Under the pieces are notes generated by a model. The model was not told where the DNA came from. It searched no databases and saw nothing but the letters and a program-made list of their open reading frames with translations. A program made the position numbers and the translations under genes. A DNA stretch of 64,000 bases from Buchnera aphidicola (Macrosiphum euphorbiae) (lineage in GTDB: Bacteria; Pseudomonadota; Gammaproteobacteria; Enterobacterales; Enterobacteriaceae): positions 434,001-498,000 of the forward strand of contig NZ_CP033006.1 of the NCBI RefSeq assembly GCF_005237295.1. The letters are read 5' to 3'. This document shows, in pieces, positions 8,932 through 55,744 of this stretch (its first letter is position 1; each line of letters starts with the position of its first letter).

Positions 8932-11568
8932 ATGAATAAAACAACAAATAAAATACGTCAAGATTTTTTAAAATTTTTTAAAGAAAAAGGACATGTAATT
9001 ATTCCAAGTAGTTCTTTGATTCCTCATAATGACTCTACATTATTATTTACTAATGCAGGTATGAATCAATTTAAAGAAATCTTTTTAGGCGAAAAAAAAA
9101 GCCACCACCCACGTGTAGCTACTGTTCAACGGTGTTTGAGAACCGGAGGAAAACACAATGATTTAGAAAATGTAGGATACACTTCAAAACATCATACATT
9201 TTTCGAAATGCTTGGAAATTTTAGTTTTGGAGATTATTTTAAACAAAAAGCAATTGAGTATGCTTGGGAATTATTAACATCAAAAAAATGGTTTGAAATA
9301 CCGAAAAATAAATTATGGGTTTCAGTATATAAAGATGATCATGAAACATATAAAATCTGGAATAATATCATAAAAATACCTTCTGAACGTATTATAAGAA
9401 TAGGTGATAAAAATAACATTCAATACAATTCTGAAAATTTTTGGCAAATGGGTGATAGTGGGCCATGTGGTCCTTGTACTGAAATATTTTATGATTATGA
9501 AAACAAAATTATAGATAATCCATTAGATTTTTTAGAAAATAAAAACGGTCGGTTTGTTGAAATTTGGAATATTGTTTTTATAGAATTTAATCGTATATCA
9601 AATACAAAAATTATTTCTTTGAAAAATAAATCTATAGATACAGGTATGGGATTAGAAAGAATATCTGCTGTTTTACAAAATGTTTATTCTAATTATAATA
9701 TCGATATATTTCAAGAATTAATACAAAATATATCTAAATTTAGCCCTCTAAATAATTTAAATAATGTTTCTTTGCAAGTTATAGCAGATCATATTAGATC
9801 TTGCGTATATATTATTGCAGATAATATTACTCCGTCAAATGAACACAGAGGTTATGTTTTAAGAAGAATTATCAGACGCGCATTAAGACATGGACATAAA
9901 ATTGGAATTAAAAAAAATTTTTTTTACAAACTAGTATCCAGTGTAATTCAAATCATGGGAAAAACTAGTGATTTTTTAAAAGAAAAACAAGAAAAAATAG
10001 AAGAAATTTTAAAAATAGAAGAAATGCAATTTTCTTATACACTTGATAAAGGTTTGAAAATATTAAATAACGAAATAAAAAAAATAAATAATAATATACT
10101 TTCCGGTAAAACTGCATTTTATCTTTATGATACTTTTGGATTTCCAATTGATTTAACAGCAGATGTTTGTCGTGAAAAAAATATAAAAATAGATTACACT
10201 GAGTATGAATTATCTAAAGAAAAACAAAAAAAACAATCAAATATCAATAAAAAATTTCATAAAAATTATAACGATAAGATTATTATAAATAATACCTGTA
10301 TTTTTGAAGGTTACAAAAAAAATATAACAAAATCATTAGTAAAATATATTTTTGTAAAAAATAAATCTGTTGAAAATATTAAAAAAAATGAGAATGGAAT
10401 TATTTTTCTCGATAAAACAGCATTTTATGGCGAATCAGGAGGACAAATAGGTGATATAGGTTATTTATATTCTGAAAAATCATCCTTTATGGTAGAAAAT
10501 ACAAAAAAATATGGAAAAACAATAGGACATATCGGAAAATTAATTTCAGGAGAAATTACAGTTAATGATTCTATTTACAGTCAAATTAATGAAGATTACA
10601 GACATTCTATTCAATTAAATCATTCAGCAACACATTTACTACATGCTGCATTACGAAAAATTTTAGGAAAAAATATTAGTCAAAAAGGTTCTTTAGTAAC
10701 TAATAAATATTTAAGATTTGATTTCTCTTATTTTAGAACAATAGAAACATCTCAAATACAAAAAATTGAAAATGTAATTAATATGAATATTCGTAATAAT
10801 GTTAAAATTGAAACTCAGGAGTTAAGTTTAGAAGAAGCTAAAAAGAAAAATGCAATCGCTTTGTTTGATAATCAATACAGCTCTATTGTTCGAGTTGTAT
10901 TTATAAATAATTTTTCAATCGAACTTTGTGGTGGAACACATGCTAAAAGAACTGGTGATATTGGATTATTTAAAATTATTTCTCAATCAAGCATAGCATC
11001 AGGAACTAAACGAATTGAAGCTGTAACAGGACAAAAAGCTATAGATTATTTACACAAAACAGACAATTACATAAAAGACATATCTTTGATATTAAATTGT
11101 AATATTTTCGATATTAAAGAAAAAACAAAAAAACTTACTATCATAATAAAAAATTTAGAAGAAAAAATAATTCAAATACAAAATAAAGAAAATACAAAAA
11201 ATATAAAAAAACTACTTAAAAACATTACAGATATAAAAGGGACAAAATTTTTAGCAAATATCTTTTATAACTATGAACATAAATTATTAAGAACCATAGT
11301 TGATAAGTTAAAAGAAGAATTAAAGAATGTAATTATTATCTTAATAAATATTAAAGATAATCGTTTTACTGTTATTGTTGGAGTTACAAAAAATTTACTT
11401 AATCAAATAACAGCAATAAGAATTATAGATATGATTACAAATGAAACAAAGGGAAAAGGAGGAGGAAGAGATGAAATTGCTGAAGGAGGAGGTGTTTATA
11501 CAAAAAAACTACCTATTATTTTAAATAATATAAAATCATGGATTAATAAAAAGTTACATAAAAAATGA
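8932..11568 (+). CDS. alaS: alanyl-tRNA synthetase
   Basis: The enzyme charges tRNA-Ala and edits mischarged Ser and Gly. The 878 residues match E. coli (876). The catalytic domain shows LFTNAGMNQFK and RVATVQRCLRTGGKHNDLEN with HHTFFEMLGNFSFGDYF. The editing domain keeps its zinc ligands HSATHLLH and CGGTHAKRTGDIG, so Ala editing looks intact, in contrast to LeuRS at 53 kb. The C-terminal domain ends with GKGGGRDEIAEGGG. Followed by csrA and tRNA-Ser/Arg as in E. coli. Confidence 0.98.
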   Translation: MNKTTNKIRQDFLKFFKEKGHVIIPSSSLIPHNDSTLLFTNAGMNQFKEIFLGEKKSHHPRVATVQRCLRTGGKHNDLENVGYTSKHHTFFEMLGNFSFGDYFKQKAIEYAWELLTSKKWFEIPKNKLWVSVYKDDHETYKIWNNIIKIPSERIIRIGDKNNIQYNSENFWQMGDSGPCGPCTEIFYDYENKIIDNPLDFLENKNGRFVEIWNIVFIEFNRISNTKIISLKNKSIDTGMGLERISAVLQNVYSNYNIDIFQELIQNISKFSPLNNLNNVSLQVIADHIRSCVYIIADNITPSNEHRGYVLRRIIRRALRHGHKIGIKKNFFYKLVSSVIQIMGKTSDFLKEKQEKIEEILKIEEMQFSYTLDKGLKILNNEIKKINNNILSGKTAFYLYDTFGFPIDLTADVCREKNIKIDYTEYELSKEKQKKQSNINKKFHKNYNDKIIINNTCIFEGYKKNITKSLVKYIFVKNKSVENIKKNENGIIFLDKTAFYGESGGQIGDIGYLYSEKSSFMVENTKKYGKTIGHIGKLISGEITVNDSIYSQINEDYRHSIQLNHSATHLLHAALRKILGKNISQKGSLVTNKYLRFDFSYFRTIETSQIQKIENVINMNIRNNVKIETQELSLEEAKKKNAIALFDNQYSSIVRVVFINNFSIELCGGTHAKRTGDIGLFKIISQSSIASGTKRIEAVTGQKAIDYLHKTDNYIKDISLILNCNIFDIKEKTKKLTIIIKNLEEKIIQIQNKENTKNIKKLLKNITDIKGTKFLANIFYNYEHKLLRTIVDKLKEELKNVIIILINIKDNRFTVIVGVTKNLLNQITAIRIIDMITNETKGKGGGRDEIAEGGGVYTKKLPIILNNIKSWINKKLHKK

Positions 11569-53164: not shown

Positions 53165-55744
53165 ATGGAACAAGAATATTCACCAAAAAAAATAGAACTA
53201 TATGTACAGGAATATTGGAAAAAAAATAAAACTTTTGAAGTCAAAGAAGATTTAAAAAAAGAAAAATATTATTGTCTTCCTATGCTCCCATATCCTTCTG
53301 GAAAATTACATATGGGTCATGTTAGAAATTATACCGTTAGCGATGTTATTGCACGATATCAAAGAATGATAGGTAAAAATGTTTTGCAACCAATGGGTTG
53401 GGATGCTTTTGGTTTGCCTGCTGAAGAAGCAGCTATAAAAAGTAACACAAGTCCACTTTCATGGACTAAGAAAAACATAAAATACATGAAAAAGCAACTT
53501 CAATCGCTAGGTTTTAGTTATGATTGGAGTCGTGAAATCACTACGTGTAATGCGGAATATTATCATTGGGAACAATGGTTTTTTATTAAATTATATGAAA
53601 AAAAACTAGTTTATAAAAAAAATAGTTTAGTTAATTGGTGTTCTTATGATAAAACTGTTTTAGCAAATGAACAAGTTATTGATGGTTGTTGTTGGAGATG
53701 TCAAAATCAGATAATAATAAAAAAAATTCCACAATGGTTTATAAAAATAAGACATTATGCTGAATCTTTATATCAAGATTTAAAAAAATTAACTCATTGG
53801 CCTGAAAACGTAAAAAACATGCAACGAAATTGGATTGGACGAGTAAAAGGATTTCAAATAAAATTAAATGTTTTTAACACTTCTCAAAAAATAAAAGTAT
53901 TTACTAACAGATTAGATCTTATAATGGGTGTCACATATATTTCAATATCTATTTGCCACAAATTATCTCTTAATTTATCTAAAAAAAATCAAATAATTGA
54001 AAGATTTATAAAAAAATATCAATGTATCTCGCAAGAAGAACTAAAAACTGTTAAATATATAGGAATTAATACAAATCTATTTGTTATTCATCCTATTACA
54101 GAAAAAAAAATACCAATTTGGATTTCAAATTTTATTCTAAAAGAATATGGTACAAATGCAGTTCTATCTATTCCTGGACATAATGAACACGATTGGAATT
54201 TTGCAGTTAAAAATAATCTCAAAATTAAATATGTCGTTCTAAATCCTAATCATCAAAAATATAATGCACATAGTTCTTTTATAGATATAAAAGGAATATT
54301 ATTTAATTCTAACGAATTTAATGGATTGAATTCTAAAGATAGTAGTGAAAAAATAAAAAATATACTGTTCCAAAAGAAAATATTAAAAGAAAAAATCAAT
54401 TATAAATTGCAAGACTGGTGTGTATCAAGACAGCGCTATTGGGGAGCCCCTATTCCAATGGCAACATTAAAAAATGGAAAAATATTATCAATACCAGAAG
54501 ATGAACTACCTGTAGTTTTACCAACAATTGAACAAAATATAGATTCATTAAAAAAGTCTATTAATCCCAATTCTAATTGGGCTAAAATTTTCATCAATAA
54601 TAAAAGTGCTATTAGAGAAACCGATACTTTTGATACGTTTATGGAATCATCTTGGTACTACGCAAGGTATACTTGTCCAAATTTTAATACAGGCATGATT
54701 GATTTAATGGCATCAAAATATTGGCTACCTGTCGATCAATATATTGGTGGAATAGAGCATGCAATTATGCATTTAATGTATTTTAGGTTTTATCATAAAT
54801 TACTGCGTGATTTCAAATTAGTTGATTCAGATGAACCTGTAAAAAATTTATTATGTCAAGGCATGGTTCTTTCTGAAGCTTTTTATGAAATTGATAAAAA
54901 CTTACGACGCAATTGGATTCACTCATCATCTGTTTTGATAGAACGTAATTCAAAAGGAGAAATTATTAAATCATACAATAAAAAAGGAAAAGAGTTATTT
55001 TATGCAGGAATGATTAAAATGTCTAAATCAAAAAACAATGGAATTGAACCGGAATTAATGATTCAACGTTATGGAGCTGATACAATTCGTTTGTTTATTA
55101 TGTTTTCTGCTCCTGTAGAATCTTCATTAGAATGGAAAGAATCTGGTGTGAAGGGAGTACATCGTTTTTTAAAAAAACTTTGGAAGATAATATATAATTA
55201 TATTGACATAAAAAATACACATCACAAAATGAATTTTAATCTTTTAAATTATCAACAAAGTCACTTACGCTGCCAATTACATAAAACTATTTCTAAAGTT
55301 ACTGACGATATAAGTCGTCGAAAAACATTTAATACTGCCATTTCTGCAATTATGGAATTAGTAAATGAATTAGCAAAAGCTCCGATAAAAGAAGAACAAG
55401 ATAAATCTATTATGCGAGAATCTTTAATTTGTATAATTAAAATGCTCTATCCATTTACACCTCATTTTTGTTTTTTTGTTTGGAAATATTTTTATGAAAA
55501 TAAAACAATTGATGATGAAAAATGGCCTGTCTTTACAGAAAATATTTTATTGAAAAAATATAATGTTATTATTGCTCAAATTAATGGAAAAACACGGTGT
55601 ACTATAAAAATACCTAATAACTTAAATAAAGAAGAAGTATTTTTACAGATAAAAAGTGAACCTATAATAAAAAAATATTTAAAAAATGTTAATATAAAAA
55701 AAATAATATATATTCCTAAAAAAATAATAAATTTTGTAATTTAA
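53165..55744 (+). CDS. leuS: leucyl-tRNA synthetase with degenerate editing site
   Basis: It charges tRNA-Leu. The 859 residues match E. coli (860) and the synthetic site is intact: HIGH-type YPSGKLHMGHVRNY, ETDTFDTFMESSWYYARYT and KMSKS in IKMSKSKNNGIEPE. In the CP1 editing domain the threonine-rich motif TTRPDT of E. coli (247-252) reads TNRLDL at the same numbers (53903-53920), so Thr248 and the pocket Thr252 are replaced by Asn and Leu; GTGAV reads GTNAV and HDQRD reads HNEHD (54179-54193), with the last Asp kept. Charging should work, post-transfer editing probably not. corC is upstream and holA downstream. Confidence 0.97.
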   Translation: MEQEYSPKKIELYVQEYWKKNKTFEVKEDLKKEKYYCLPMLPYPSGKLHMGHVRNYTVSDVIARYQRMIGKNVLQPMGWDAFGLPAEEAAIKSNTSPLSWTKKNIKYMKKQLQSLGFSYDWSREITTCNAEYYHWEQWFFIKLYEKKLVYKKNSLVNWCSYDKTVLANEQVIDGCCWRCQNQIIIKKIPQWFIKIRHYAESLYQDLKKLTHWPENVKNMQRNWIGRVKGFQIKLNVFNTSQKIKVFTNRLDLIMGVTYISISICHKLSLNLSKKNQIIERFIKKYQCISQEELKTVKYIGINTNLFVIHPITEKKIPIWISNFILKEYGTNAVLSIPGHNEHDWNFAVKNNLKIKYVVLNPNHQKYNAHSSFIDIKGILFNSNEFNGLNSKDSSEKIKNILFQKKILKEKINYKLQDWCVSRQRYWGAPIPMATLKNGKILSIPEDELPVVLPTIEQNIDSLKKSINPNSNWAKIFINNKSAIRETDTFDTFMESSWYYARYTCPNFNTGMIDLMASKYWLPVDQYIGGIEHAIMHLMYFRFYHKLLRDFKLVDSDEPVKNLLCQGMVLSEAFYEIDKNLRRNWIHSSSVLIERNSKGEIIKSYNKKGKELFYAGMIKMSKSKNNGIEPELMIQRYGADTIRLFIMFSAPVESSLEWKESGVKGVHRFLKKLWKIIYNYIDIKNTHHKMNFNLLNYQQSHLRCQLHKTISKVTDDISRRKTFNTAISAIMELVNELAKAPIKEEQDKSIMRESLICIIKMLYPFTPHFCFFVWKYFYENKTIDDEKWPVFTENILLKKYNVIIAQINGKTRCTIKIPNNLNKEEVFLQIKSEPIIKKYLKNVNIKKIIYIPKKIINFVI

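Follow-up and report, generated by a model that had tools for sequence, protein, structure and literature searches.

Loss of editing by aminoacyl-tRNA synthetases in host-restricted bacteria was reportedly the subject of Melnikov et al. 2018 (PNAS 115:E11505), and the leucyl-tRNA synthetase (LeuRS) of Mycoplasma is said to have been treated by Li et al. 2011 (PNAS 108:9378). Passages of two reviews (PMC7373986, PMC10057733) describe degenerate editing sites in several synthetases of host-restricted bacteria with small genomes, and present the Mycoplasma LeuRS as naturally editing-defective, with mistranslation of Leu codons. In microsporidia, a host-restricted lineage, LeuRS editing was lost by deletion of the domain, with proteomic evidence, according to a passage of the former review. 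Engineered counterparts exist in E. coli: the T252R substitution in LeuRS abolishes post-transfer editing, and a D345A strain under microaerobic conditions carried norvaline at 10% of the measured Leu residues, with negligible isoleucine (passages of PMC3834818 and PMC4932531, respectively).

Here we describe the LeuRS encoded in a 64,000-nucleotide stretch of the genome of Buchnera aphidicola (Macrosiphum euphorbiae), hereafter the window. Host restriction is established for Buchnera; the window's genome is a single contig of 645,334 bases, and the 36 genus genomes analysed, this one included, measure 0.6–0.7 Mb. The window LeuRS thereby shares a reduced-genome setting with the natural editing-deficient LeuRSs of host-restricted organisms. 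Its editing site shows the kind of degeneration described for the host-restricted bacteria of Melnikov et al. 2018, to which we add a series of intact and broken sites within one genus and the repeated appearance of the motif TNRLDL. The parallel with the Mycoplasma LeuRS drawn in the preliminary description of this DNA is right in kind, going by passages of the two reviews (PMC7373986, PMC10057733), but the window protein differs in having a full-length CP1 editing domain and a retained D345. Unlike the microsporidian enzyme, it was altered by point changes, and unlike the engineered E. coli versions, its T252L, T248N and G333N changes are natural and are accompanied by an unchanged D345. The window LeuRS is an instance of a trend already known in general for host-restricted bacteria; the series within one genus and the persistence of Asp345 may be new. 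No title among the literature matches listed concerned LeuRS editing in Buchnera, and the passages of PMC4014445 consulted do not treat it.

The features of the gene, placed by alignment to the LeuRS of E. coli strain AST85 (the other six E. coli synthetases used below are from MG1655), are as follows:

53165..55744, + strand: leuS, encoding a leucyl-tRNA synthetase of 859 aa in an uninterrupted frame (TIGR00396)
53273..53296, + strand: CLPMLPYP, with Ser39 changed to Pro beside the Leu-pocket Met40, genus-wide
53309..53320, + strand: HMGH, the HIGH signature, retained in the synthetic site
53846..54392, + strand: CP1 editing domain, spanning window residues 228-410 (228-412 in E. coli)
53903..53920, + strand: TNRLDL for E. 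coli TTRPDT 247-252 (same numbering), with T247 kept and T248N, P250L and T252L
54146..54157, + strand: YGTN for E. coli YGTG 330-333, with G333N
54179..54193, + strand: HNEHD for E. coli HDQRD 341-345, with D342N, R344H and the catalytic D345 kept
55016..55030, + strand: KMSKS signature, kept

The protein scores 1034.3 bits against TIGR00396 (curated cut-off 548.4), covering profile positions 1-842 of 843, and the HMGH and KMSKS signatures together with the CP1 domain likewise place it in the LeuRS family. The boundaries of CP1 (E. coli 228-412) are our choice; the Pfam LeuRS editing domain, PF13603, matches at residues 221-400 with 205.7 bits. An AlphaFold model of the full protein, built from 21 sequences, has a mean pLDDT of 65.1 with a poor N-terminal region. 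The synthetic site had been called perfect, which holds for HMGH, KMSKS and the tallied pocket residues but not for position 39 (codon 53279-53281). This residue is Pro in 36/36 genus genomes and Ser or Ala in all 79 readable relatives among the best 80 of 588 matches; Pro39, next to Met40, might change which amino acids the synthetic site selects.

The substitution of TTRPDT 247-252 by TNRLDL was borne out at its exact coordinates. The accompanying claim that the key threonines are lost applies to Thr248 and Thr252 and fails for Thr247, which is kept. The reported alteration of GTG and HDQRD is likewise present: the former reads GTN, and in the latter D342 and R344 are changed while the catalytic Asp345 (window residue 343, codon starting at 54191) remains. 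Thus, three positions on which editing competence depends, T248, T252 and G333, hold N, L and N, and the fourth, Asp345, is unaltered. We compared these positions with the best 80 of 588 LeuRS matches, all from gammaproteobacteria other than Buchnera. Among these 80, TTRPDT is exact in 79, T248, T252 and D345 are each kept in 80, and G333, R344 and D342 are each kept in 79. As judged from this alignment, the pocket changes in the window LeuRS are far beyond chance. The sole exception to TTRPDT in this set is Candidatus Steffania adelgidicola, an insect endosymbiont with ITHIET, whose GTG/HDQRD region is altered too, a case of decay in another endosymbiont.

We consider it probable, with the pocket residues as the main evidence, that the window LeuRS charges tRNA-Leu normally and has lost most or all of its post-transfer editing, with T252L blocking the pocket, CP1 serving as a scaffold and the loss being tolerated. 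A small residue at position 252 lets correct Leu-tRNA-Leu be hydrolysed. According to a passage of PMC9023258, T252 acts as the negative determinant in the LeuRS pocket, placing correct Leu-tRNA-Leu unproductively, and D345 drives hydrolysis; with the T252R result (PMC3834818), this agrees with the preliminary description of Thr252 as a determinant of pocket size at which a bulky residue blocks editing. Leu252 would fill the pocket such that the 3′ end of mischarged tRNA-Leu no longer binds productively, and the same filling would spare correct Leu-tRNA-Leu from hydrolysis, with CP1 presumably persisting as a structural part of the enzyme. Since D345 is kept, residual hydrolysis is possible.

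The last norvaline-forming step requires a branched-chain transaminase. A transaminase of the corresponding PF01063 (IlvE) family was found in 0/36 genus genomes as against 13/14 control genomes, and a passage of PMC4306246 describes Buchnera as lacking ilvE, with the aphid enzyme performing the final transamination. Leucine synthesis yields norvaline as a side product (passage of PMC4932531), and an epetraborole-resistant mycobacterium with a mutant LeuRS is relieved of norvaline inhibition by leucine (passage of PMC11057210). The loss of editing would be tolerated in that the main threat is norvaline, not isoleucine, and leucine is probably abundant enough to outcompete it. Isoleucine had also been proposed at Leu sites, a suggestion at odds with the editing-dead E. 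coli LeuRS, which mistranslated almost only with norvaline (passage of PMC4932531); the likely cost of editing loss would be norvaline at Leu codons. We found leuA in 29/36 genus genomes, on a second or third contig at coordinates below 8 kb. The seven in which it was not found are exactly the seven single-contig assemblies, that of the window included, so the leucine plasmid is probably missing from these assemblies and no correlation of leucine synthesis with pocket state can be drawn. The absence of PF01063 from intact and broken lineages alike means that the metabolic explanation does not discriminate between them: it may explain why the loss was allowed, not when.

An alignment of CP1 across Buchnera, proposed as a check in the preliminary description, confirmed the broken pocket of the window but also showed that 11 of the 36 genomes keep T248, T252, G333 and D345. 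Position by position, T248 is kept in 13 genomes, T252 in 13, G333 in 11 and D345 in 29, the last including 17 of the 23 that lost T252. The 11 intact genomes are nine of clade C plus G008 and G010 (our genome handles) of another clade. The LeuRS frame is full-length in 36/36. Nine of the 19 clade A genomes, including that of the window, carry TNRLDL, as do G001 and G030. The Leu252 codon is CTN in 16/19 genomes; clade A mostly uses CTT, G001 has CTA and G030 has CTC. Residue 248 in the broken genomes varies among N, D, Q, E, M, L, I and K. The phylogeny was obtained with a time-limited IQ-TREE search from a seven-gene core without editing domains and carries no supports, these being taken from FastTree and a quick three-gene SH-aLRT tree. 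G001 clusters with the intact G008 and G010 (support 1.0 in FastTree and 99 in the three-gene tree), and the position of G030 differs from tree to tree. For groups picked once the tree had been seen, the AU test rejects a single clade of A+G018 with G001 (p 1.2e-5), of A+G018 with G030 (p 3.2e-4) and of the 11 intact sequences (p 4e-66). With TNRLDL in three lineages set apart by a tree free of editing domains, repeated loss is most likely, and the pocket was likely lost in several lineages. Under equal-cost parsimony with regain allowed, the intact/broken label needs only four changes, and G034, a member of clade A, may have either retained or regained its T252.

Gene transfer that carried a broken CP1 from one lineage to another was considered as a source of the shared motif and rejected, there being no domain-wide signal. 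When G001 is compared with G008=G010 at informative sites, the clade A state is matched at 4/7 CP1 and 3/8 core sites, and the pocket residues 252 and 333 account for two of the four matches in CP1; when G030 is compared with four clade C sequences, the figures are 5/10 CP1 and 7/13 core sites.

To survey the wider family, we searched 119 genomes with the E. coli LeuRS, obtained matches at E ≤ 1e-150 in 115, and took the LeuRS from 38 reduced genomes (≤ 2.4 Mb, rounded), leaving out the larger ones. Excluded from the 38 were the Buchnera genomes G000 (the window's) and G024, already in the genus set, G086 with a split match, and G084, G111, G119 and G134 (all 0.2–0.6 Mb) with no match at E 1e-150. 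T248, T252, G333 and D345 survive together in 14 of the 38, and T252 is lost in 15, so editing-site decay is recurrent in reduced-genome relatives. D345 is lost in five of the 38 and is kept in 12 of the 15 without T252. In one relative with a 258-kb contig, 19 TGA codons lie in frame in the LeuRS gene (G136:C1:83203-85713), suggesting that TGA is read as a residue there.

We also entertain, tentatively, the idea of a natural replicate: that editing was switched off at least three times by N248 with L252, plugging position 252 and leaving Asp345 in place, the plug being safe for Leu-tRNA-Leu and the loss of the transaminase having removed the norvaline threat. Bulky residues (L/I/M/F) occupy position 252 in 10 of the 15 other reduced genomes that lost T252. 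A selected path in which the plug came first was tried and set aside for want of statistical support: neutral AT-rich codon drift gives 39–63% L/I/M/F, with binomial p of 0.03–0.49 depending on settings. For Leu by itself, the expected share of non-Thr outcomes at 252 is at most 16%, the independent events being too few for a firm test. Among T248, T252, G333 and D345, the sole residue lost in a genome of the 38+36 is T252 four times (G042, G050, G065, G098), G333 five times (G068, G072, G088, G126, G005), T248 twice (G073, G113) and D345 never. Several of these genomes are changed nearby too: G098 lacks R249, and G005 lacks T247 and R249. For the coupling of 248, 252 and 333, independent pairs agree in direction, though with only four pairs on starred branches significance is unreachable.

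The CP1 domain shows a modest relaxation signal. Its branch-length ratio to the LeuRS core is 1.77 in clade A, 1.87 in the mixed clade B and 1.61 in clade C, the corresponding editing/core controls being 1.1–1.2 for IleRS and ValRS; with resampling, the ratio is 1.84 (1.39–2.37) in clade A and 1.59 (1.27–2.14) in clade C, and 1.25 and 1.26 for IleRS. Over 100 resamples, clade A exceeds clade C in 89 and IleRS in 94. The dN/dS of CP1 is 0.30, 0.28 and 0.47 in three broken pairs, 0.18, 0.21 and 0.15 in three intact ones and 0.24 in a single mixed pair, with 0.11–0.23 in the LeuRS core. Part of this contrast is a lineage effect, for the broken pairs also show higher values in the IleRS editing domain (0.23, 0.27, 0.23, against 0.18, 0.16, 0.16 in the intact ones). 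The percentages of columns invariant across the genus, in editing domain and core, are 9/37 for LeuRS, 24/40 for IleRS, 26/36 for ValRS, 32/27 for AlaRS, 20/41 for ThrRS, 15/20 for PheT and 15/32 for ProRS. Thus, the constraint on CP1 is somewhat weaker yet real, which fits a scaffold domain or residual work.

Three other accounts of these observations can be weighed. First, editing might have been lost already in the ancestor of the genus, the pocket residues having drifted since and the TTR[IL]DT lineages being merely unchanged so far. This would agree with our preferred explanation on the present activity and differ from it on the timing and on the intact clade. It gains from the fact that D342, R344 and P250 are kept in 0/36 genomes, D342 and R344 being changed even where the pocket is otherwise intact, and from the rather fast CP1 of intact clade C (1.59 against 1.26 for IleRS, higher in 88/100 resamples). 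However, 11 genomes in two clades retain all four residues in a domain with only 9% invariant columns; further, the positions equivalent to D342 and R344 are occupied by G and D in IleRS and by D and N in ValRS (by eye), so related editors can do without R344 at least. On balance we regard an ancestral loss as rather doubtful. Second, the pocket may be retuned instead of dead, with D345, T247, R249 and Y330 kept and Leu252 narrowing it but leaving it able to hydrolyse smaller mischarged amino acids. Retention of D345 in 29/36 genus and 33/38 other reduced genomes, as against 0/36 and 11/38 for R344 and 0/36 and 15/38 for D342, is in line with such a retuning, as are the retention of R249 (34/36), Y330 (34/36) and G331 (35/36) in the genus and a CP1 dN/dS far under 1 in all seven pairs measured. 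Yet T248 and G333, near-invariant among the best 80 of 588 matches, were lost along with T252 in the window, and the variety at residue 248 among the broken genomes looks like decay; we hold this to be unlikely. Third, normal editing by other CP1 residues with compensated changes would be in keeping with the conserved length and frame of the domain, its PF13603 match of 205.7 bits and its modelled fold (pLDDT of 81–91 in 14/19 ten-residue blocks and 56–73 in five), but is very improbable given that three top-conserved pocket residues, one a published specificity determinant, are altered together.

We then set the loss of post-transfer editing in LeuRS, the explanation we prefer, beside the other editing synthetases of the same genomes. 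The residues tallied for PheRS, ProRS, AlaRS and ValRS are those which we take to be their key editing residues; C182 of ThrRS comes from a published abstract, and T241, T246, H333 and D342 of IleRS come from published passages. The ThrRS and PheT sets comprise 35 genomes each, as G008 lacks a full open ThrRS frame and its PheT match lies at a contig end. The intact editing residues of AlaRS had been set against those of LeuRS, and for this comparison the gene lies in the window:

8932..11556, + strand: alaS, editing residues H564, H568, C666 and H670 kept (G000:C1:442932-445556)

Across the genus, AlaRS keeps H564, H568, C666 and H670 in 36/36 genomes and T567 in 35/36. The contrast therefore stands but is not the only one: IleRS (T241, T242, T243, T246, H333 and D342 in 36/36) and ValRS (T221, R223, T226 and D286 in 36/36; T222 in 35/36, with one T222S) are also preserved, and the sites of ThrRS and PheRS-beta are gone. 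In ThrRS, C182 and H186 are kept in 0/35 genomes and H73 and H77 in 2/35 each; in PheRS-beta, R244, G318, E334 and A356 are kept in 0/35, H265 in 1/35 and T354 in 2/35. ProRS keeps E218 in 36/36, K279 in 35/36, T257 in 2/36 and H369 in 0/36, two of these four residues being changed in the window's genome. From these residues, the window's cell appears to be without Thr, Phe and Leu editing and to retain Ile, Val and Ala editing. With both sites degenerate throughout their 35-genome sets, the losses in ThrRS and PheRS-beta look older than that in LeuRS. The thrS of G008 (G008:C1:3721-5645) seems split in two frames, with two matches and two TAA codons in the second, and may reflect a frameshift or an assembly error.

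A passage of the review PMC7373986 states that no Mycoplasma with three or more lost editing sites is known and suggests an upper limit; against this limit, three sites (Leu, Thr and Phe) look lost in the window's genome. The finding itself is ordinary in kind, and its interest lies in the series of intact and broken sites within the genus and in the selectivity of loss among the seven synthetases, with the Ile, Val and Ala sites retained in the same cells. As intact and broken LeuRSs stand side by side in one genus, the cause and the cost of proofreading loss become testable by comparison.
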